Assembly (NCBI RefSeq): GCF_026230175.1
Contig: NZ_CP104208.1
Coordinates: 3,844,001 to 3,908,000 of the forward strand
Direction: 5' to 3'
Origin: Desulfovibrio mangrovi
Lineage (GTDB): Bacteria > Desulfobacterota > Desulfovibrionia > Desulfovibrionales > Desulfovibrionaceae
DNA length: 64,000 nt
Shown: positions 18,105 to 27,991 of the stretch, piece after piece
How positions within the stretch are numbered: the first letter of the stretch is position 1
Layout of the letters: each line of letters opens with the position of its first letter
Translations under genes and position numbers: made by a program
The notes under the pieces: generated by a model
What the model was told of the DNA's origin: nothing
The model's database searches: none
What the model saw: the letters and a program-made list of their open reading frames with translations, nothing else

Positions 18105-19361
18105 TCAGGTTTCGTGGCTGCGCAGCACGTCCAGCACTTCCACGCGGGAAGCCTTCCATGCCGGATAGGCTCCGGCAATGAGACCGAACAGGACGGAAGC
18201 GCCGCAGGACATGGCAATCAGCAGCGGGTCATATACATAGGGGAAGTTGCCTATGCGATATACCACGGTCACGCAGAGCAGAGCTCCGCATACACCAAGA
18301 AGGCCGCCAGTGCCAGACATGAGACCGGCTTCCAGAAGAAATTGCAGCACGATGGAACGGCGTTTGGCTCCCACGGCGCGGCGTATGCCTATCTCCAGCC
18401 TGCGTGAGCGTACCAGCAGGATCATGATGGACAGAATGCCGAGGCTGCCCACCATGAAGGAAATGCCGGAACTCATGACGCCCAGTGTCCACACGAGGTC
18501 CAGAGCCTGAGTCTGCAGTATGGCCGCGTCACTGGCCGTGAGCACGGCGAAATCGTCGCGGGCTGGATCGGTTATCTGGTGCCGTGCACGGAGCAGGGCT
18601 TTTGTCTCAGCCTTGGCGGCCGTCGTATCCGCGCCGTCGTACAGGGTCATGTAGACGCCGGAGATGTAATCCTGATTGCTCATGCGCCGCATGTAGGTGG
18701 TGACGGGGACGAATACCTGCTCGTCCTGATCGGTGCCGGAAAGGTCGCGGCCCTTCTCTTCCATGACGCCTATCACTTCGAGGCCCGCGCGGTAGAAAAA
18801 TACGGTTTGCCCCAATGCCAGCTCGGGCTTGCCGAAGAGCTTTTCCGCAATGGTCTTGCCCAGTACGCAAACCTTGGCCCGTGTCTCCACGTCATTCCGC
18901 GAAATAAAGCGGCCAGTGGCCGGAGCTACGGAGCGTACAGCGGTATACGCGGGAGCCGTGGCCACAAGCTGGGCTGTGGTCGTGGTGCGCTGAAAGCGAA
19001 CCGGCATGTTCTTTCTTACAAAGGGAACGCCGACGCGTACCTGCGGTACGCCGCTGATCAGGGCTTCTGCATCGGCGAGGGTGAATGTGGTGGTTTCGCT
19101 GCCGAAGCGGACGGAGCCGCTATGGACGAAGCGCACCTTGCCGGACATGGCTACAAACAGGTTGGGGCCGAGCTTGGCGGTCTCTTCTTCCGCCTTTTGT
19201 ACCATGGCCTTGGAAACATGCATGACGCCGGTAAGGGCCAGTGCGCCGAGGAATACACCGAGCATGGCAAGGGCCGTGCGCAACTTGTGGGTGGCAAGCG
19301 CCTGCAGGGCGATTTTCAGGCCGCCGAACAGGGTGTGCAGCATGGAAGCGGCGGTGCTCAT
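18105..19361 (-). CDS. ABC transporter permease, MacB/FtsX type (second of pair)
   Basis: A 418-residue membrane protein with the MacB topology. One N-terminal helix ('LRTALAMLGVFLGALALTGVM', about 28-48) is followed by a large periplasmic MacB_PCD domain (about 50-275) and three C-terminal helices within FtsX ('LGVMSSGISFMVGSLGILSIMILLV', then 'RRAVGAKRRSIVLQFLLEAGLMS'). No ATPase domain is fused. It starts 2 nt past the first permease and likely pairs with it. Their ATPase and fusion protein are probably the genes at 25.9-27.8 kb. Confidence 0.88.
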   Translation of the reverse strand: MSTAASMLHTLFGGLKIALQALATHKLRTALAMLGVFLGALALTGVMHVSKAMVQKAEEETAKLGPNLFVAMSGKVRFVHSGSVRFGSETTTFTLADAEALISGVPQVRVGVPFVRKNMPVRFQRTTTTAQLVATAPAYTAVRSVAPATGRFISRNDVETRAKVCVLGKTIAEKLFGKPELALGQTVFFYRAGLEVIGVMEEKGRDLSGTDQDEQVFVPVTTYMRRMSNQDYISGVYMTLYDGADTTAAKAETKALLRARHQITDPARDDFAVLTASDAAILQTQALDLVWTLGVMSSGISFMVGSLGILSIMILLVRSRRLEIGIRRAVGAKRRSIVLQFLLEAGLMSGTGGLLGVCGALLCVTVVYRIGNFPYVYDPLLIAMSCGASVLFGLIAGAYPAWKASRVEVLDVLRSHET

Positions 19362-19363
19362 GG

Positions 19364-20638
19364 CTAATCGCCTCCCCGCAGGGCACGTATGGGGTCCATG
19401 TCGGCGGCATGTCGCGCGGGCCGCAGCCCGAAAATAACGCCCACCAGCGTGGCGGAGAGCATCGCGTAGCTGAAGATCTTCCACGACAGGCGGATTTCGA
19501 TGAGGCCGAGCCGGGCCAGCATCTGGCCCATGGCAAGGCCCAGAAAAACGCCCACCACGGCTCCGAGCACTGTCAGCGCCACGGCTTCAATGAGAAACTG
19601 GGTGACAATGGCCTGCCTGTCGGCTCCCATGGCGCGGCGCAGGCCGATTTCGCGCGTGCGTTCGGACACGGAGAGGTAGAAGAGGTTGGCCAGCACGAAG
19701 CCGCCTACCAGAATGGCGGCGGCAGCCGTAATGCCGAGAAATATGGTCAGTCCGCCCTTGATCATGGCGAGAAATTTCTGCACCTCGGCGGCGGAAAGGA
19801 TGGTGAAGTCGTTGGGCTCGCCTTCCCGCAACCCGTGCAGGTGGCGGAGCAGGCTCTCCAGATTGATGATGTTGTCTTCCATGTGTTCGGCGTCATGGAA
19901 TTTGATGCGCAGGGCGCGGAAGTAGCGGCGGTCCACGCCGAAGCGTTGAACCATGGTGGTCAGGGGGATGATGACGCGGTCATCCAGATTGGCCCCGCCT
20001 CCGGCAATGCCGCGTGGGGTGAGTTTGCCTGCTACGGTGAAGGGAATTCGGTTCAGAAAGACGCTTTTGCCTACGGGGCTGGCGTTGCCGAACAGTTCCT
20101 TTGCCACGGTCTCGCCCAGAAGGCAGACACGGGCGCCCATCTCAACGTCTCCGGCGGAAAGGTCACGGCCTTCGGCAAGGGGCCAGTTCCACGATTCCCC
20201 GTAGTTCTCCGTGGCGCCGATGGTGTTTCCAATATCCCACTTTTTGTTGCCGTGGCTGATGCTTGTTGCTCCCGATACCTGCATGGGGACAACAAGATAG
20301 GTGCCCGGCAGTGACTGACGGATGCGTTCCGCGTCATCCCACGTGAGTGTCTTGAAACGCTGGCCCACTGCCCGATTGATTATGTCGCCGCCAAGAATGA
20401 GCAGGGCGTCCGGCCCGAATGACTGCGTGATTTCGTCCGCTTTGCGGTTGGCACCGTCATGGGCGGCGATGATGACCGTGAGCGAGGCGATACCCAGCGC
20501 AATGGCCGTGATGACGAAGACTGAGCGCAGCTTGTAGGCCCACAGCACGTTCAGGGCCATGCCCTGTATGCGCCAGAAGAGGCGCAGACGCTGGCGGAGT
20601 CCGGTGCGGAAGGTTGTGGCGGTTTGCGGAGTCTTCAT
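19364..20638 (-). CDS. ABC transporter permease, MacB/FtsX type (first of pair)
   Basis: A 424-residue permease with an N-terminal membrane helix ('VFVITAIALGIASLTVIIAA', about 40-60), a periplasmic domain, and three C-terminal helices with the FtsX signature 'REIGLRRAMGADRQAIVTQFLIEA'. Such proteins act as mechanotransmitting or lipoprotein/efflux permeases with a MacA-like fusion protein. A weak ribosome site precedes the ATG. Upstream of it lies the terminator of a symporter gene rather than its usual ATPase. The substrate is unknown. Confidence 0.88.
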   Translation of the reverse strand: MKTPQTATTFRTGLRQRLRLFWRIQGMALNVLWAYKLRSVFVITAIALGIASLTVIIAAHDGANRKADEITQSFGPDALLILGGDIINRAVGQRFKTLTWDDAERIRQSLPGTYLVVPMQVSGATSISHGNKKWDIGNTIGATENYGESWNWPLAEGRDLSAGDVEMGARVCLLGETVAKELFGNASPVGKSVFLNRIPFTVAGKLTPRGIAGGGANLDDRVIIPLTTMVQRFGVDRRYFRALRIKFHDAEHMEDNIINLESLLRHLHGLREGEPNDFTILSAAEVQKFLAMIKGGLTIFLGITAAAAILVGGFVLANLFYLSVSERTREIGLRRAMGADRQAIVTQFLIEAVALTVLGAVVGVFLGLAMGQMLARLGLIEIRLSWKIFSYAMLSATLVGVIFGLRPARHAADMDPIRALRGGD

Positions 20639-20896: not shown

Positions 20897-22504
20897 CTAG
20901 CAGTTCTGCCAGCAGGCTTCCACGTGTTCGTCGGCAAGGCTTGTGGAGAATGCGCTTACGCCCCATGCGAGCAGGAAGGCGAAGGGCAGAGCCACCACGT
21001 TGGGGTCTACCCACTGGAGCAGGAACAGCCAGCTGCCCTTGGTCGCGTCGGCAACGAGCGTGGTCTTGCCGAAGAGGAACTGGCACAGACCTATGGAAGC
21101 AGCTTCCTTTTCATGGATGAAGAGCAGCCAGAACATGGAGGTCATGAAGCCTCCGATGATGGAGACCTTGGCACCGGCTTTGGTCATGCCCTTCCAGTAC
21201 AGGCCGAGCAGGTAGGCAGGCAGGAAGGCTGCACCGCACAGGCCGAAGAAGAACGCCGTGGCGCGGGCGATGACGGATTCCGGCAGCACCCATGCCCAGA
21301 TGAGGGCGGCGAGAATGGTGATGACCACGCCCATCTGGTTCACCGCCATGGAATTTCCTGCGGCACGCACGCGGGTGCGCATGGCGCGGGCATAGATGTC
21401 GTGGCCCAGCGAGGTGCCACCCACGTGGAACTGGCTGGAAAGGGTGGACATGGCTGCGGCGAACATGGCCAGCAGGAACACGGCGGAGAACCACGAGGGC
21501 ATCATGGTTTCGATGAATGTGGGAATGATCTTGTCAATGTTGCCACCGGCCATGGCTATGCTGATTTTGCCGAATTCCTTGAAGAACACGGCGTTGGAAA
21601 GGGCGCCGACAGTGAAAGCCACGCCCGTCATCAACAGGATGAAAATGCCGCCGTAGAGCACGGCCCGGTTCAGTTCGCGGTCGCCGGGTACGGTCATGAA
21701 GCGCACGGCAAGCTGCGGCTGGGCAAGCACGCCCACACCCACGCCGTAGACGATGGTGGTGTAGATGGTCAGCCACAGGGGCGAGAAGGGCACGGCTCCC
21801 TGCGTCCAGCCGAGCATGCCGCCTTTCTGCAATTTTTCCGGCATCAGGTGGGCCATGTCGGTGAGCATCTGGTGACCTTCCGTCACGCCGCCGAGCAGGC
21901 TGTAAGTGTAGCAGATGAGTACCAGCATCATCACGGCCATGATGGTACCCTGAAAGACATCCGTATACATAACGGCCTTCATGCCGCCCGTGATGACGTA
22001 GAGCGCCACGATGGCAGTTACGCCGAGCAGCACCCATGTGTAGGGCAGGCCGAGGGAGACTTCCACCATGCGGCATATGCCGATGAGCACGGCAGCGGCG
22101 TAGACGGGAATGAACAGGAAGATCACGCCGCCGGTAAAGCCCTGAATGAATCTGGATTGATAGCGTTTGCCCAGCAGTTCCGGAAAGGTGTGGCAGTTGA
22201 GGGCAAGCCCCATGCGGCGGGTGCGTTTGCCGAAGAAGACCATGGCGATGAAGATGCCGAAGACCAGTGTGAAAACGGTGAGCCAGAGCAGGGGAAACCC
22301 GAACAGCCCTGCCGCGCCGCCGAAGCCGATGATGGCGGAAGTGGAAATGAAGGTGGCCCCGTAGGACATGGCCATGACGAAGGGGTTCACGCGGCGGCCT
22401 GCCAGCATGTAGTCATTGGCTCCCTTGGTTTCCTTCCACCCCTTGTACCCGAGATAGAAAACGATGGCGAAATAGACCAGCGTGGTAATCAGCTTGGCGG
22501 TCAT
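20897..22504 (-). CDS. Sodium:solute symporter (SSS family), copy 2
   Basis: A 535-residue secondary transporter with about 13 membrane helices. It has the SSS-family region 'SYGATFISTSAIIGFGGAAG' (about 48-67) and a 'TGGMKAVMYTDVFQG' motif. By eye it differs from the copy at 23102-24709 at about 21 positions (roughly 96% identical), most in the first 300 residues. It lies 11 nt behind a 54-residue accessory membrane protein. The pair is preceded by a Phe-rich leader peptide and terminator, which points to phenylalanine or a related aromatic compound as substrate (inference). The acetate-type ActP group is an alternative. Confidence 0.9.
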   Translation of the reverse strand: MTAKLITTLVYFAIVFYLGYKGWKETKGANDYMLAGRRVNPFVMAMSYGATFISTSAIIGFGGAAGLFGFPLLWLTVFTLVFGIFIAMVFFGKRTRRMGLALNCHTFPELLGKRYQSRFIQGFTGGVIFLFIPVYAAAVLIGICRMVEVSLGLPYTWVLLGVTAIVALYVITGGMKAVMYTDVFQGTIMAVMMLVLICYTYSLLGGVTEGHQMLTDMAHLMPEKLQKGGMLGWTQGAVPFSPLWLTIYTTIVYGVGVGVLAQPQLAVRFMTVPGDRELNRAVLYGGIFILLMTGVAFTVGALSNAVFFKEFGKISIAMAGGNIDKIIPTFIETMMPSWFSAVFLLAMFAAAMSTLSSQFHVGGTSLGHDIYARAMRTRVRAAGNSMAVNQMGVVITILAALIWAWVLPESVIARATAFFFGLCGAAFLPAYLLGLYWKGMTKAGAKVSIIGGFMTSMFWLLFIHEKEAASIGLCQFLFGKTTLVADATKGSWLFLLQWVDPNVVALPFAFLLAWGVSAFSTSLADEHVEACWQNC

Positions 22505-22515
22505 GGTGTTGCTCC

Positions 22516-22680
22516 CTATGCGTTGTCTCCGCCTTCGTCAGGCAGAATATCGTCTATGGAAATGGTGTCCGGCGTGCCGGTGTTATTCCAGTTGATGTAG
22601 CCGTATGCCACGCAGCCTATTGCCGAAATGATGCATAGCCAAAAGGCCAGTGCCGTGTCCCAACTGCCGAGTCCGAGCAT
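22516..22680 (-). CDS. Small symporter accessory membrane protein, copy 2
   Basis: A 54-residue protein with one membrane helix ('TALAFWLCIISAIGCVAYGYI', about 9-29), then a polar tail (NWNNTGTPDTISIDD) ending in acidic residues. It begins with ATG preceded by GAGGAAAC. It is matched by a near-identical 55-residue gene at 24722-24889 ahead of the other symporter. The first 44 residues differ at one position (Y28/F), and the last 10 vary. Small proteins of this kind upstream of SSS transporters are known as symporter accessory proteins. The exact role is unproven. Confidence 0.85.
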   Translation of the reverse strand: MLGLGSWDTALAFWLCIISAIGCVAYGYINWNNTGTPDTISIDDILPDEGGDNA

Positions 22681-22710: not shown

Positions 22711-22745
22711 CGAAAAAGGGCCGCAGGTTTTCACCTGCGGCCCTT
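22711..22745 (-). terminator. Attenuator terminator, symporter unit 2
   Basis: A 13-bp stem AAGGGCCGCAGGT (22716-22728) with ACCTGCGGCCCTT (22733-22745). On the minus strand five T residues follow, then CG. It stands between the leader ORF and the accessory gene, so it would end transcription before the structural genes unless disrupted. Its 5' arm can instead pair over 7 bp (CCTGCGG, 22734-22740) with the leader strand at 22803-22809. Confidence 0.88.
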
Positions 22746-22771: not shown

Positions 22772-22888
22772 TCAGCAGCGCGTGGTCGCGCACACCCGGG
22801 GTCCGCAGGCAATCAAGCCGCTAAAGAAGAAGCTAAAAAAGAAGCTGAATGCGAAGTGCGCAAGTGCGCGTGCGGTAAGGGTGTTCAT
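22772..22888 (-). CDS. Phenylalanine-rich leader peptide, symporter unit 2
   Basis: A 38-codon ORF starting ATG at 22888 and ending TGA at 22772. It contains eight phenylalanines in residues 12-22 (F-A-F-S-FFF-S-FFF) and a conserved C-terminal half (FFSG-IACG-RVCA-RC) shared with the leader of unit 1. The Phe codons (22817-22831) can pair over 15 bp, with two G-U pairs, with the region just past the stop (22765-22779). This is the layout of the E. coli pheA-type attenuation leader. No Shine-Dalgarno is visible, and a promoter -10-like hexamer lies 10 nt before the ATG, so it may be read as a nearly leaderless mRNA. Confidence 0.85.
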   Translation of the reverse strand: MNTLTARALAHFAFSFFFSFFFSGLIACGPRVCATTRC

Positions 22889-22898
22889 AGGGATGTTG

Positions 22899-22926
22899 TT
22901 TACGCGGCTGTTTTCAAATTTGTCAA
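22899..22926 (-). promoter_or_regulatory. Promoter for symporter unit 2
   Basis: A perfect TTGACA -35 box (minus strand of 22921-22926), a 16-nt spacer and a weak -10, CGTAAA (22899-22904). The leader ATG follows 10 nt after the -10. The same layout with a better -10 precedes the other copy. Confidence 0.65.
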
Positions 22927-23101: not shown

Positions 23102-24709
23102 TTAGCAGTTCTGCCAGCAGGCTTCCACGTGTTCGTCGGCAAGGCTGGTGGAGAATGCGCTTACGCCCCATGCGAGCAGGAAGGCGAAAGGCAGGGCCAC
23201 CACGTTGGGGTCTACCCACTGGAGCAGGAACAGCCAACTGCCCTTGGTCGCATCGGCAACGAGCGTGGTCTTGCCGAAAAGGAACTGGCACAGGCCTATG
23301 GAGGCGGCTTCCTTTTCGTGGATGAAGAGCAGCCAGAACATGGAGGTCATGAAGCCGCCGATAATGGAGACCTTGGCACCGGCTTTGGTCATGCCCTTCC
23401 AGTACAGGCCGAGCAGGTAGGACGGCAGGAAGGCTGCACCGCACAGGCCGAAGAAGAACGCCGTGGCGCGGGCGATGACGGATTCCGGCAGGACCCATGC
23501 CCAGACGAGAGCGGCGAGAATGGTGATGACTACGCCCATCTGGTTCACGGCCATGGAATTCCCTGCGGCGCGCACGCGGGTGCGCATGGCGCGGGCATAG
23601 ATGTCGTGGCCCAGCGAGGTGCCACCCACGTGGAACTGGCTGGAAAGGGTGGACATGGCTGCGGCGAACATGGCCAGCAGGAACACGGCGGAGAACCACG
23701 AGGGCATCATGGTCTCGATGAATGTGGGAATGATCTTGTCAATGTTGCCGGCTGCCATGGCAATGCTGATCTTGCCGAATTCCTTGAAGAACACGGCGTT
23801 GGAAAGGGCACCTACGGTGAAGGCCACGCCCGTCATCAGCAGGATGAAGATGCCGCCGTAGAGTACGGCCCGGTTCAGCTCGCGGTCACCGGGAACGGTC
23901 ATGTAGCGTACGGCAAGCTGGGGTTGGGCAAGTACGCCGATACCCACGCCGTAGACGATGGTGGTGTAGATGGTCAGCCACAACGGGGAGTAGGGCACGG
24001 CTCCCTGCGTCCAGCCGAGCATGCCGCCCTTCTGCAGCTTTTCCGGCATCAGGTGGGCCATGTCGGTGAGGGTCTGGTGGGCTTCCGTCACACCGCCGAG
24101 CATGGAATAGGTGTAGTAGATCAGAATGAGCATCATCACGGCCATGACGGTGCCCTGAAATGCGTCCGTGTACATGACGGCCTTCATGCCGCCCGTGATG
24201 ACGTACAGGGCGATGATGGCGGTTACGCCGATCAGCACCCATGTGTAGGGCAGGCCGAGGGAGACTTCCACCATGCGGCATATGCCGATGAGCACGGCAG
24301 CGGCATAGACGGGAATGAACATGAAGATAACGCCGCCGGTGAAGCCCTGAATGAATCTGGATTGATAGCGTTTACCGAGCAGCTCGGGGAAGGTGTGGCA
24401 GTTGAGAGCAAGTCCCATGCGGCGGGTGCGTTTGCCGAAGAAGATCATGGCGATGAAGATGCCGAAGACAAGATTGAACACCGTGAGCCACAGCAACGGA
24501 AAGCCGAAGAGACCGGCTGCGCCGCCGAAGCCGATGATGGCGGAGGTGGAAATGAAGGTGGCCCCGTAGGACATGGCCATGACGAAGGGGTTCACGCGGC
24601 GGCCTGCCAGCATGTAGTCGCTGGCGCCCTTGGTCTCCTTCCAGCCCTTGTAGCCGAGGTAGAAGACAATGCCGAAGTAGACCAGCGTGGTGAGCAGTTT
24701 GGCTGTCAT
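23102..24709 (-). CDS. Sodium:solute symporter (SSS family), copy 1
   Basis: A 535-residue transporter, nearly identical to the copy at 20897-22504 and arranged in the same direction. It is the first copy in transcription order. Residues 1-300 carry almost all of the roughly 21 differences, while the C-terminal half is almost unchanged, which suggests recent duplication or gene conversion. It lies 12 nt behind its own accessory protein. The two copies carry separate leaders, promoters and terminators, so they can be expressed independently. Substrate as for copy 2: an aromatic amino acid or related acid is inferred from the leader only. Confidence 0.9.
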   Translation of the reverse strand: MTAKLLTTLVYFGIVFYLGYKGWKETKGASDYMLAGRRVNPFVMAMSYGATFISTSAIIGFGGAAGLFGFPLLWLTVFNLVFGIFIAMIFFGKRTRRMGLALNCHTFPELLGKRYQSRFIQGFTGGVIFMFIPVYAAAVLIGICRMVEVSLGLPYTWVLIGVTAIIALYVITGGMKAVMYTDAFQGTVMAVMMLILIYYTYSMLGGVTEAHQTLTDMAHLMPEKLQKGGMLGWTQGAVPYSPLWLTIYTTIVYGVGIGVLAQPQLAVRYMTVPGDRELNRAVLYGGIFILLMTGVAFTVGALSNAVFFKEFGKISIAMAAGNIDKIIPTFIETMMPSWFSAVFLLAMFAAAMSTLSSQFHVGGTSLGHDIYARAMRTRVRAAGNSMAVNQMGVVITILAALVWAWVLPESVIARATAFFFGLCGAAFLPSYLLGLYWKGMTKAGAKVSIIGGFMTSMFWLLFIHEKEAASIGLCQFLFGKTTLVADATKGSWLFLLQWVDPNVVALPFAFLLAWGVSAFSTSLADEHVEACWQNC

Positions 24710-24721
24710 GCTGTTATCTCC

Positions 24722-24889
24722 CTATCTGTCGTCATCGCAACTGCCGTCCGGCAGCACGTCGTCTATGGAAATGGTGTCGGGCGTACCGGTGTTATTCCAG
24801 TTGATGAAGCCGTATGCCACGCAGCCAATTGCCGAAATTATGCACAGCCAGAAAGCCAGCGCCGTGTCCCAACTGCCGAGTCCGAGCAT
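24722..24889 (-). CDS. Small symporter accessory membrane protein, copy 1
   Basis: A 55-residue protein beginning MLGLGSWDTALAFW, with a single membrane helix at about 9-29 and a shared NWNNTGTPDTISIDD tail. It diverges from the copy at 22516-22680 only in the final segment. The ATG is preceded by GAGGAGGAAAC, and the stop lies 12 nt before the symporter ATG. The tight pairing in both duplicated units argues that the small protein works with the transporter. Confidence 0.86.
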   Translation of the reverse strand: MLGLGSWDTALAFWLCIISAIGCVAYGFINWNNTGTPDTISIDDVLPDGSCDDDR

Positions 24890-24913: not shown

Positions 24914-24954
24914 GAAAAAACAAGAAGGGCCGCAGGTGTTGCCTGCGGCCCTTC
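24914..24954 (-). terminator. Attenuator terminator, symporter unit 1
   Basis: GAAGGGCCGCAGG (24924-24936) pairs with CCTGCGGCCCTTC (24942-24954), and the minus strand then reads TTGTTTTTTC. In the alternative fold, TTGCCTGCGG of the leader (25008-25017) pairs perfectly over 10 bp with the 5' arm and loop of this hairpin (24939-24948), which would block it. That is an antiterminator arrangement. Confidence 0.92.
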
Positions 24955-24976
24955 GGGGTGTTCGTGAAGCTACTTT

Positions 24977-25084
24977 TTAGCAGCGCCTTGAGGCGCACAC
25001 CCGGGTCCCGCAGGCAATCGTGCCGCTAAAAAAGTAAAAGCCAAAAAAGAATAGCGCAGAGGCGCATGCGGTATGGGTGTTCAT
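24977..25084 (-). CDS. Phenylalanine-rich leader peptide, symporter unit 1
   Basis: A 35-codon ORF, ATG at 25084 to TAA at 24977. Residues 12-19 read FFFGFYFF, i.e. six Phe and one Tyr codon in eight. The start (M-N-T-x-T-A) and the C-terminal half (FFSG-IACG-RVCA-RC) match the other leader. The control codons with the next residues (25022-25036) can pair with 24971-24984 beyond the stop, with one bulge and one G-U. A small hairpin, GCGCC-TCAA-GGCGC, lies near the stop. A weak AAAGG lies 6-7 nt before the ATG. Ribosome stalling at Phe codons should favour the antiterminator. Confidence 0.88.
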   Translation of the reverse strand: MNTHTACASALFFFGFYFFSGTIACGTRVCASRRC

Positions 25085-25092
25085 GGGCAACC

Positions 25093-25120
25093 TTTATCTT
25101 GTGTTTTTCATTATTGTCAA
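25093..25120 (-). promoter_or_regulatory. Promoter for symporter unit 1
   Basis: TTGACA (minus strand of 25115-25120), a 16-nt spacer and GATAAA (25093-25098, four of six matches to TATAAT). The leader ATG begins only 8 nt after the -10, so the transcript starts at or next to the start codon. Confidence 0.75.
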
Positions 25121-25911: not shown

Positions 25912-26607
25912 TCAGGACGTGGTGTCGGAAACGATGCGTCCGTCGGCGAATTCAATGCGCCTTGCGGCTCTGGTTGCGGTTTCCGGATCGTGTGTGACGA
26001 TGATGATCGTCTTGCCCGCCGCGTTGATGGATTCGAAGAGATCCAGAATATCCTTGCCGGTGGCTGTGTCCAGCTGGCCCGTAGGCTCATCGGCCAACAG
26101 CAGGGGCGGGTCATTGAGCAGGGCGCGGGCCAGCGCCACACGTTGCTGCTGGCCGCCGGACAGGCTTGAAGGCTTGAAGTGCATGCGGTCCGCCAACCCT
26201 ACACGTTCGAGCAGGGCTTCGGCCCGTTCACGCAGGAACTTGCCGCTCGCATCGCCATACAGGCCTGGGAGCATCACGTTATCCAGCGCCGAGGCGTAGG
26301 GAATGAGATAAAAGCTCTGGAACACCATGCCCACAAGGGTGTTGCGGGCGGCACTGCGGGTGTCGTCATCCATGCCTGCCGTATCCGTTCCATCAAGATA
26401 ATAGTGGCCGGAAGTGGGGGAATCGAGCAGCGCCAGCAGGTGCAGCAGGGTGGACTTGCCCGATCCCGAAACTCCCTGAATGGCCACCAGCTCTCCGTGA
26501 CCAATGCACAGATCAAGCGGCTTTACCGCCTCCACGGTCAGGTCCCCCTGCCGGAATGTGCGGGTCAGGGCCTCGGTCCGCACAACGTATGGCGCTTTGC
26601 TGGTCAT
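25912..26607 (-). CDS. ABC transporter ATP-binding protein (MacB/LolD type)
   Basis: A 231-residue ATPase. Walker A GVSGSGKST is at 45-53, the signature LSGGQQQ at 149-155 and Walker B LLLADEP at 169-175, followed by 'TGQLD' (usually TGNLD in this family). The start ATG shares one base with the stop of the fusion-protein gene. Its likely partners are the two FtsX-type permeases at 18.1-20.6 kb, from which it is separated by the two symporter units. The substrate is unknown. The family includes macrolide, lipoprotein and peptide exporters. Confidence 0.92.
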   Translation of the reverse strand: MTSKAPYVVRTEALTRTFRQGDLTVEAVKPLDLCIGHGELVAIQGVSGSGKSTLLHLLALLDSPTSGHYYLDGTDTAGMDDDTRSAARNTLVGMVFQSFYLIPYASALDNVMLPGLYGDASGKFLRERAEALLERVGLADRMHFKPSSLSGGQQQRVALARALLNDPPLLLADEPTGQLDTATGKDILDLFESINAAGKTIIIVTHDPETATRAARRIEFADGRIVSDTTS

Positions 26608-27845
26608 CAGGGGGTCTTCTTTCTGGCGGACGCTGTGGGCAGGACGATCTTGACGGCCAGCTCGTCGCCTTCGGAGAGCCCCTCAAGCACTTCGCTGGAC
26701 GTCTGTCCAAGCAGGCCGAGCTTGGGCTGGACTTGCCTGATGCCTCCTCCGGCTGCCTTGACGAAGACGTATTGTTCGCCGTCCACCCATTTGAGCGCAT
26801 CGTTGGGCAGGGCGAGCACGTCCTTCTTTTCCTCCACAACCACGGTGCACTGGGTGGTCATTTCGGGCCGCAGCTCGGAAGCTGTTTCCGGTGTCAGACG
26901 GACAAGTGCCTGATAATAAACGATGTTGTCGCGGATTTCCGGTTCCGGATAAATCTGGTTCACGGTGCCGTCAAAGATGCGGCCGGGGTAGGCGTCTACG
27001 CGAAACTCCACGGGCATGCCGGGGCGTATGCGGCCCACGTCGGTTTCATCCACGTAAATCCACATCTCAAGTCGGGTCGGGTCAAGAATGGTGATGAGGT
27101 TGGCCACTTCCAGCCCCGCCACCACGGTCTCACCCGTCTGGGCGGCCACCTGGCTGACAACGCCGTCTATGGGGGCGTATATGGTCGTATAGGTGATGCG
27201 TACCTGCGTGGACTTGAGGGTTGCCTGCGCTGCGGCAACGGCTTCGCGGGCCTTGGTGCTCTCAAGCCGGTACTCGGTTTCAAGCCGCTTGAGGGTGGCG
27301 CTACGCGCCTTTTGGGTATTCTTTGAAACGGTGAATTTCTGGTTGGCGTCGTCCAGACTGTCCTGCGAATCCAGCTTCTGTTCCACCAGTTTCATTTTAC
27401 GCTTCAGGCTGAGTTGCAGATATTCGGCCTCGGCCTGTGATGCTTTCAACTGGGCACGGGCTTCATTGATCTGCAGGGGATACACCGTGTCCACACGGGA
27501 AAGTTCGGCTTCCGCTTTGCGCAGGGCTGCTTCGGCTTCGGCAAGGCTGGCCTGTTGTTCGCGGTCATCGATTTCCGCGATGAGGTCGCCTTTCTTTACG
27601 CTGTCGCCCACGCGGACATACATCTGCTTGATGAGGCCGGTGGCGCGGCTGCCGGTTTTGACTATGGCTCCCACCTCGGGCTTGATGATGCCGGTGGCTT
27701 CAAGCGTGGCGCGGACGGTCCCCTTGGTGAGGCGGGCTGTTTCCAGCACCTTGGTTTCCTGCGATGTCCTGCCTGATTGCCAATACCATGCGCCCGCACC
27801 GACTGCGGCGAGAAGCAGGGCGAGTATGATCAGTCTGTTCCGCAT
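26607..27845 (-). CDS. Membrane fusion protein (MacA/HlyD-like efflux subunit)
   Basis: A 412-residue periplasmic adaptor. An N-terminal membrane segment (about 3-20) is followed by the lipoyl/barrel-sandwich domain ('GAIVKTGSRATGLIKQMYV') and a long alpha-helical hairpin (about 95-200). Beta-barrel and membrane-proximal domains complete it. It carries substrates from the ABC permeases toward the outer membrane. The ATG at 27845 has AGGA 6-7 nt ahead and puts the membrane segment at the N-terminus. Upstream in-frame starts (27863, 27875) lack a ribosome site. Confidence 0.9.
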   Translation of the reverse strand: MRNRLIILALLLAAVGAGAWYWQSGRTSQETKVLETARLTKGTVRATLEATGIIKPEVGAIVKTGSRATGLIKQMYVRVGDSVKKGDLIAEIDDREQQASLAEAEAALRKAEAELSRVDTVYPLQINEARAQLKASQAEAEYLQLSLKRKMKLVEQKLDSQDSLDDANQKFTVSKNTQKARSATLKRLETEYRLESTKAREAVAAAQATLKSTQVRITYTTIYAPIDGVVSQVAAQTGETVVAGLEVANLITILDPTRLEMWIYVDETDVGRIRPGMPVEFRVDAYPGRIFDGTVNQIYPEPEIRDNIVYYQALVRLTPETASELRPEMTTQCTVVVEEKKDVLALPNDALKWVDGEQYVFVKAAGGGIRQVQPKLGLLGQTSSEVLEGLSEGDELAVKIVLPTASARKKTP

Positions 27846-27991
27846 GCGTTTCCTGTGATTCATTGTTTGCAGCACAGCGTTCCGTTGAGGGGATGCCCCA
27901 ACGGGAGCGCACGATAACTGCGTGGACGCATACTATAATACAGTAATCGCATTAGGCCACCCCAAATGCAGAACGATTCCTGATTAGTCGT

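Follow-up and report, generated by a model that had tools for sequence, protein, structure and literature searches.

The window, a stretch of 64,000 nt from Desulfovibrio mangrovi (NZ_CP104208.1), carries on its minus strand two units in which a gene for a small accessory membrane protein is followed by a gene for an SSS-family symporter:

24722 to 24889, minus strand: small accessory membrane protein of unit 1, 55 aa, ATG at 24889; NF045580, 43.5 bits (cut-off 35)
23102 to 24709, minus strand: SSS-family symporter of unit 1, 535 aa, ATG at 24709; PF00474, 194.2 bits (cut-off 22.8), and TIGR00813, 192.6 bits (cut-off 184)
22516 to 22680, minus strand: small accessory membrane protein of unit 2, 54 aa; NF045580, 43.7 bits (cut-off 35)
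20897 to 22504, minus strand: SSS-family symporter of unit 2, 96% identical to that of unit 1

NF045580 is the symporter small accessory protein family, and membership in the sodium:solute symporter family (PF00474, TIGR00813) is likewise given by profile scores that exceed the curated cut-offs. Assignment to the PutP proline symporter (TIGR02121) was rejected, with 187.4 and 194.3 bits against an equivalog cut-off of 515.5. Both units are flanked, at 18105-20638 and 25912-27875, by genes that resemble those of membrane-fusion proteins, ABC ATPases and MacB-like permeases.

Each unit is preceded by a leader region of its own, with the following elements:

25115 to 25120, minus strand: -35 box TTGACA of unit 1, read from the sequence, its first T 36 nt 5' of the leader ATG
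24977 to 25084, minus strand: leader ORF of unit 1, MNTHTACASALFFFGFYFFSGTIACGTRVCASRRC, 35 codons and a stop (ATG at 25084, TAA at 24979-24977), conserved in orthologues
25028 to 25051, minus strand: regulatory codons of unit 1, FFFGFYFF, read from the sequence
25008 to 25017, minus strand: segment 2 of unit 1, TTGCCTGCGG, within the ORF, 5' half of the antiterminator, a conserved helix
24939 to 24948, minus strand: segment 3 of unit 1, CCGCAGGCAA, common to antiterminator and terminator
24915 to 24954, minus strand: intrinsic terminator of unit 1, a 13-bp stem (24954-24924) and then a T-rich tract (24923-24915)
22921 to 22926, minus strand: -35 box TTGACA of unit 2, its first T 38 nt 5' of the leader ATG
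22772 to 22888, minus strand: leader ORF of unit 2, MNTLTARALAHFAFSFFFSFFFSGLIACGPRVCATTRC
22823 to 22855, minus strand: regulatory codons of unit 2, FAFSFFFSFFF, read from the sequence
22803 to 22810, minus strand: segment 2 of unit 2, GCCTGCGG, which pairs with 22740-22733; 2 of 200 shuffles attain the energy of this duplex
22713 to 22744, minus strand: intrinsic terminator of unit 2, a stem (22744-22717) and then a T run

The elements that the preliminary description had named for unit 1 (TTGACA, a 35-codon Phe-rich ORF, its stop codon and a 13-bp terminator 5' of the symporter pair) are all present at 25120-24915 on the minus strand. The perfect 10-bp pairing that it had proposed between leader and terminator is confirmed as well, segment 2 (25017-25008) being an exact 10-nt complement of segment 3 (24948-24939), which is formed by the 5' arm and loop of the terminator. 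This terminator, GAAGGGCCGCAGG-caaca-CCTGCGGCCCTTC, has 13 bp and zero mismatches; the folded region has a z of -3.1, and 2 of 200 shuffles fold equally well. That the second symporter unit has a Phe leader of its own was absent from that description. A CCGCAGG core is common to the terminators of both units. The motif CCTGCGG-N30-60-CCGCAGG was discarded as a leader finder: it occurs at 13 places in the same genome, one of them the unit 1 leader, and misses unit 2.

An orthologue of the symporter (E<=1e-100) was found in 71 of the 348 genomes searched at the level of the order, and the class-level search covered the same 348 genomes. Together with nine named contigs, and after removal of 11 duplicates, this gave 85 distinct upstream regions, or 86 with L084. 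The attenuator reading survives comparison with these homologous loci, which might have lacked both the short ORF and the Phe codons: an aromatic leader is kept at 65 of the 86 regions (58 Phe, 6 Tyr and 1 mixed, L092). All are inside the order (65/80, against 0/6 outside). The 15 in-order regions from which the leader is absent include L017_3210, directly behind a unit that has one, and L101, on a truncated contig. The upstream regions L016, from the genus of the window, and L006 are identical over the last 260 nt compared.

A short ORF containing 5 or more F/Y per 10 residues occurs in 64 of 83 regions (two regions shorter than 200 nt were left out), whereas the opposite strand yields one in 5 of 83 and dinucleotide shuffling in 107 of 1660 (6.4%). 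In the F/Y windows of 46 non-redundant leaders, Phe is encoded by 201 TTT and 91 TTC and Tyr by 29 TAT and 11 TAC; TTA and TTG are absent from the 292 TTN codons of these windows, a count favoured by the choice of windows for F/Y richness.

The alignment of leader RNAs comprises 44 of the 46 non-redundant leaders, L092 and L093 being left out. The antiterminator helix (segment 2 with segment 3) is paired in 99.1% of cells, compared with 26-40% in slid controls, and three of its pairs show double changes (7 cells). For the terminator the paired share is 95.5% of cells, and double changes occupy 35 cells across the 44 leaders. Column 103, in the arm that both helices share (segment 3), can pair with segment 2 in 43 of the 44 rows and with segment 4 in only 24 of 44, which indicates that the shared arm is preserved for the antiterminator. 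The duplex energy of segments 2 and 3 has a median z of -3.3 relative to shuffles, and in 55 of 61 leaders at most 10 of 200 shuffles are as good. Taken together, duplex energies, covariation and column 103 describe an antiterminator and a terminator that are mutually exclusive, as in an attenuator. The terminator was detected automatically in 62 of 64 leaders and by eye in L043 and L045, which are also matched by the RNA model R1 described below. In 60 of 61 rows, segment 2 begins 2-14 nt past the final regulatory codon; the exception is L082, for which the wrong terminator was used.

The promoter is equally regular. TTGACA with no more than one mismatch is present before 63 of 64 symporter leaders, compared with 19 of 64 after single-base shuffling. 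In 60 of the 63 that have such a box, its first T is 35-38 nt 5' of the leader ATG; for the six Tyr leaders, the upstream in-frame ATG was used for this spacing. Given the usual promoter spacing from a -35 box to +1, this distance would place +1 on or beside the A of the leader ATG, and leaderless initiation is therefore predicted. The related leaders of aroA', the first gene of aromatic synthesis, have the box 33-40 nt 5' of the ATG in 32 of 42 cases, a count that is favoured because, where a leader had several in-frame ATGs, the ATG whose box lies at the anticipated spacing was preferred. Among the aroA' leaders of Halodesulfovibrio, L129 and L131 deviate from this spacing.

The preliminary description had also proposed alternative-state folding as a check. 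In simple folding by ribosome position, applied to 62 leaders with E. coli pheL as a control, truncated transcripts fit a switch, but equilibrium folding of the full transcript does not reproduce it. In transcripts without segment 4, a ribosome halfway along the Phe run leaves a mean of 10.5 antiterminator pairs, and one placed 5 or 3 codons 5' of the stop leaves 1.2 or 1.6. At the stop itself 7.0 pairs remain, segment 2 being masked only partly. Without a ribosome there are 9.7, which is opposite to textbook super-attenuation; a protector hairpin forms a mean of fewer than 2 pairs in this state and so is not general. At equilibrium, full transcripts favour the terminator on average in all ribosome states (mean terminator fraction 0.83-0.92); the E. 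coli pheL control, by contrast, still switches under these conditions. Because the terminator wins whatever the position of the ribosome, these models are read as indicating a switch that would have to be kinetic, decided during synthesis of segment 4.

The following sequence of events can be proposed. The leader would be translated by a ribosome while RNA polymerase is still making the leader RNA. When charged tRNA-Phe is scarce, the ribosome would stall within the Phe codons and leave segment 2 free, which in unit 1 starts 9 nt past the last Phe codon; segment 2 could then pair with segment 3, the terminator would not form in time, and accessory protein and symporter would be made. When Phe is plentiful, the ribosome would run through segment 2 while segment 4 is made, the terminator would form and transcription would stop. 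A device of the same design, with Tyr codons, precedes a paralogous symporter, and versions with Phe+Tyr+Trp, Phe or Tyr codons precede aroA'; the codon content would tell which charged tRNA each operon reads.

The link to aroA' comes from R1, an RNA model trained exclusively on symporter leaders and run on 10 genomes of the genus of the window and on 22 selected genomes from 12 other genera. Within the genus, the 28 matches at E<=1.8e-7 correspond to leaders of symporters (17) and of aroA' (10), plus one false positive. The latter (L134; G006 C56:80855; 1.7e-9) was rejected as an aromatic leader, being a terminator behind a coding sequence, and R1 is accordingly not perfectly specific. Ten among the weaker matches listed for the genus (E > about 1e-6; L136, L139, L140 and L142-L148) are terminators without an aromatic leader. 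For the other 22 genomes, the best 46 matches (E<=6.4e-8; 27 weaker ones left out) comprise 32 aroA' leaders and 14 symporter leaders, all with a short aromatic ORF; some of these symporter leaders had also served to train R1. No match was obtained in 20 leader-less upstream regions (20 of 21 were given to the model).

All 42 proteins encoded behind the aroA' leaders match TIGR01949 (2-amino-3,7-dideoxy-D-threo-hept-6-ulosonate synthase). Their leaders fall into three classes: 32 contain Phe, Tyr and Trp codons, nine are of the Phe type (no Trp and no more than 2 Tyr) and one, L187, is a Tyr leader. Leader class tracks the protein phylogeny, with 3 changes compared with 9.3 in shuffles, and copies led by Phe+Tyr+Trp and by Phe codons occur together in 9 of the 22 genomes, for example in G177 (L172 and L179). 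The Tyr leader L187 (G076 C1:1682780-1682891, minus strand) reads PYYYGY, with four Tyr; the same genome also has a copy led by Phe+Tyr+Trp codons (L168). In six Halodesulfovibrio genomes (L130-L133, L135 and L141), aroA' begins about 210-215 nt past the leader match, compared with the usual distance of about 50-60. The claim of a single Phe attenuator of a symporter has therefore to be widened: its attenuator reading is supported by conservation, TTT/TTC variation and compensatory changes, but the leader is one of a set of aromatic leaders.

In the genome of the window, a Phe+Tyr+Trp leader heads an operon with two aroA' genes, both above the cut-off, followed by DHQ synthase-like, pheA-like, aroA-like and tyrA-like genes and by trpE, G, D, C, F, B and A. 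The products of trpG, trpD, trpB and trpA pass the curated cut-off, and those of trpE, trpC and trpF best match their own families, at scores below it. For the tyrA-like ORF, which has no match at E<=1e-40, the name comes from its position and resemblance; pheA and aroA score above cut-off in the matching cluster of G177, where both were scored. One leader that reads three amino acids would thus precede an operon that makes all three. RNA-seq of D. hydrothermalis, in the main text of PMC4162548, shows an aldolase, dehydroquinate synthase, pheA, aroA, tyrA and the trp block changing together; the strings 'symport' and 'attenuat' are absent from that text. This gene block fits an operon; the leader itself is outside the reach of those data.

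Codon content also differs between closely related transporters. Six Halodesulfovibrio genomes contain tandem symporter paralogues, one with a Phe leader and one with a Tyr leader. At aligned positions, the clearest Phe form is FFFAFFGFR (with variants including IFYAFFDFR in L029) and the Tyr form is YFYAYYGYR. In a tree of 46 full symporters out of the 85 regions, from which unit 2 of the window was left out, the units with Tyr leaders form one clade (97/97) beside the tandem units with Phe leaders (100/99), inside the Phe-leader group. Most simply, these sequences suggest that a unit was duplicated and that one copy later changed from Phe to Tyr. Such tandem units represent a natural codon swap, in which leader and transporter specificity can be compared side by side. 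Symporter residues 293, 294 and 297 (I/V, G/F and Y/F) separate the Tyr-leader from the Phe-leader paralogues (L018-L023 and L025-L030, respectively). They are among about 32 fixed differences and are T, G and F in the other Phe-leader symporters compared; this cluster is a possible specificity site, although the alignment to 5nv9 is too weak to assign these residues to a substrate site. Two symporter leaders from one genus of another family of the order also differ, L092 (G245) being mixed (FYFYGYYFF) and L093 (G243) all-Phe. This is possibly a second case of codon re-assignment.

The short ORF could instead encode a functional hydrophobic microprotein, such as a partner of the symporter, and the hairpin could be an ordinary terminator. 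The ORF is indeed conserved and hydrophobic and precedes another small membrane protein; however, its aromatic run shifts from Phe to Tyr or to Phe/Tyr/Trp according to the downstream gene, the aroA' enzymes are preceded by the same type of leader, and segment 3 is kept complementary to RNA that lies within the ORF, all of which make a microprotein very unlikely. Slightly less probable still is a leader that arrests the ribosome on abundant free aromatic amino acid, as TnaC does, and so makes the transporter inducible by its substrate. Although arrest peptides also control genes for transport and breakdown, the sensing of starvation accounts better for long runs of a single residue whose neighbours vary, and for the occurrence of the same design before biosynthesis genes. 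Least credible of all is a U-rich site bound by a protein or a small RNA, with an incidental reading frame, an idea to which the U-richness of Phe runs lends itself, but which is at odds with the missing TTA and TTG codons and with Tyr and Trp versions that swap U for A or G and keep the frame. The exchange of Phe for Tyr codons weighs more here than the codon counts.

An attenuator thus remains the preferred reading; its anatomy, conservation, covariation, codon use and target set are all observed directly. It is very likely that both symporter units of the window are under ribosome-mediated transcription attenuators that sense charged tRNA, the codon content setting the tRNA. From this anatomy we infer stalling, read-through and leaderless initiation, and also the nature of the substrate. 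An aromatic substrate is made more credible by the fact that a model of symporter leaders also finds aroA' and that paralogous symporters bear Tyr leaders. On these grounds, drawn from sequence comparison, the symporters are likely to import aromatic amino acids, most likely phenylalanine (or tyrosine), and an uncharacterised SSS symporter would gain, together with its small accessory protein, a likely substrate class. On a wider scale, it seems reasonably probable that the Desulfovibrionales possess an aromatic regulon programmed by codons, with no regulatory protein dedicated to it. In this regulon, the codons of leader peptides (Phe, Tyr or Phe+Tyr+Trp), most of which are predicted to begin at the very 5' end of the RNA, would assign SSS paralogues and aroA' isozymes to one or several charged tRNAs, and a transporter copy that arose by duplication would have passed from Phe to Tyr through changes in its leader codons, giving Tyr-codon attenuators and aromatic SSS importers.

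The kind of mechanism is known; what appears new is its set of targets, the lineage, the use of Tyr codons, a leader for three amino acids and the change of codons between paralogues. The preliminary description held the design to be undescribed for a sodium:solute symporter or for Desulfovibrio-type bacteria, and searches of open-access papers offer no counterexample: among the matches listed, there is no leader-peptide attenuation in such bacteria, no attenuation of an SSS gene and no Tyr-codon attenuator. The available sections of PMC2965389, PMC10102598, PMC5343134 and PMC1183508 describe no comparable attenuator, and those of a 2005 comparative paper assign phenylalanine control to attenuators and tyrosine control to T-boxes (PMC1262725). 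Rfam gives no match at gathering score in the window for any family, including the T-box, and the best score for Phe_leader (RF01859) is 20.3 bits, for unit 2, against a gathering cut-off of 55. The present leaders would extend ribosome-mediated attenuation to an order for which no such report was listed, to a transporter family, to Tyr codons and to the reading of three amino acids by one leader.

Three known systems invite comparison. With Firmicutes Tyr T-boxes the proposed Tyr version shares control at the RNA level by the charging of tRNA-Tyr, but here this would be exerted through a translated leader with Tyr codons. In S. meliloti trpL, the attenuator RNA begins with the ATG of the leader ORF (available text of PMC7298713), as it would from the start sites predicted here; trpL, however, has Trp codons and serves the trp operon, whereas the present leaders have codons for Phe, Tyr or all three amino acids and precede a symporter gene or aroA'. 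The closest likeness is to pheL-pheA of E. coli (RF01859), with its Phe-rich leader peptide, its mutually exclusive antiterminator and terminator and a segment 2 that starts shortly after the final Phe codon. Unlike pheL, in which segment 2 follows the stop codon, the symporter leaders target a transporter and have segment 2 inside the ORF, with the stop beyond it.
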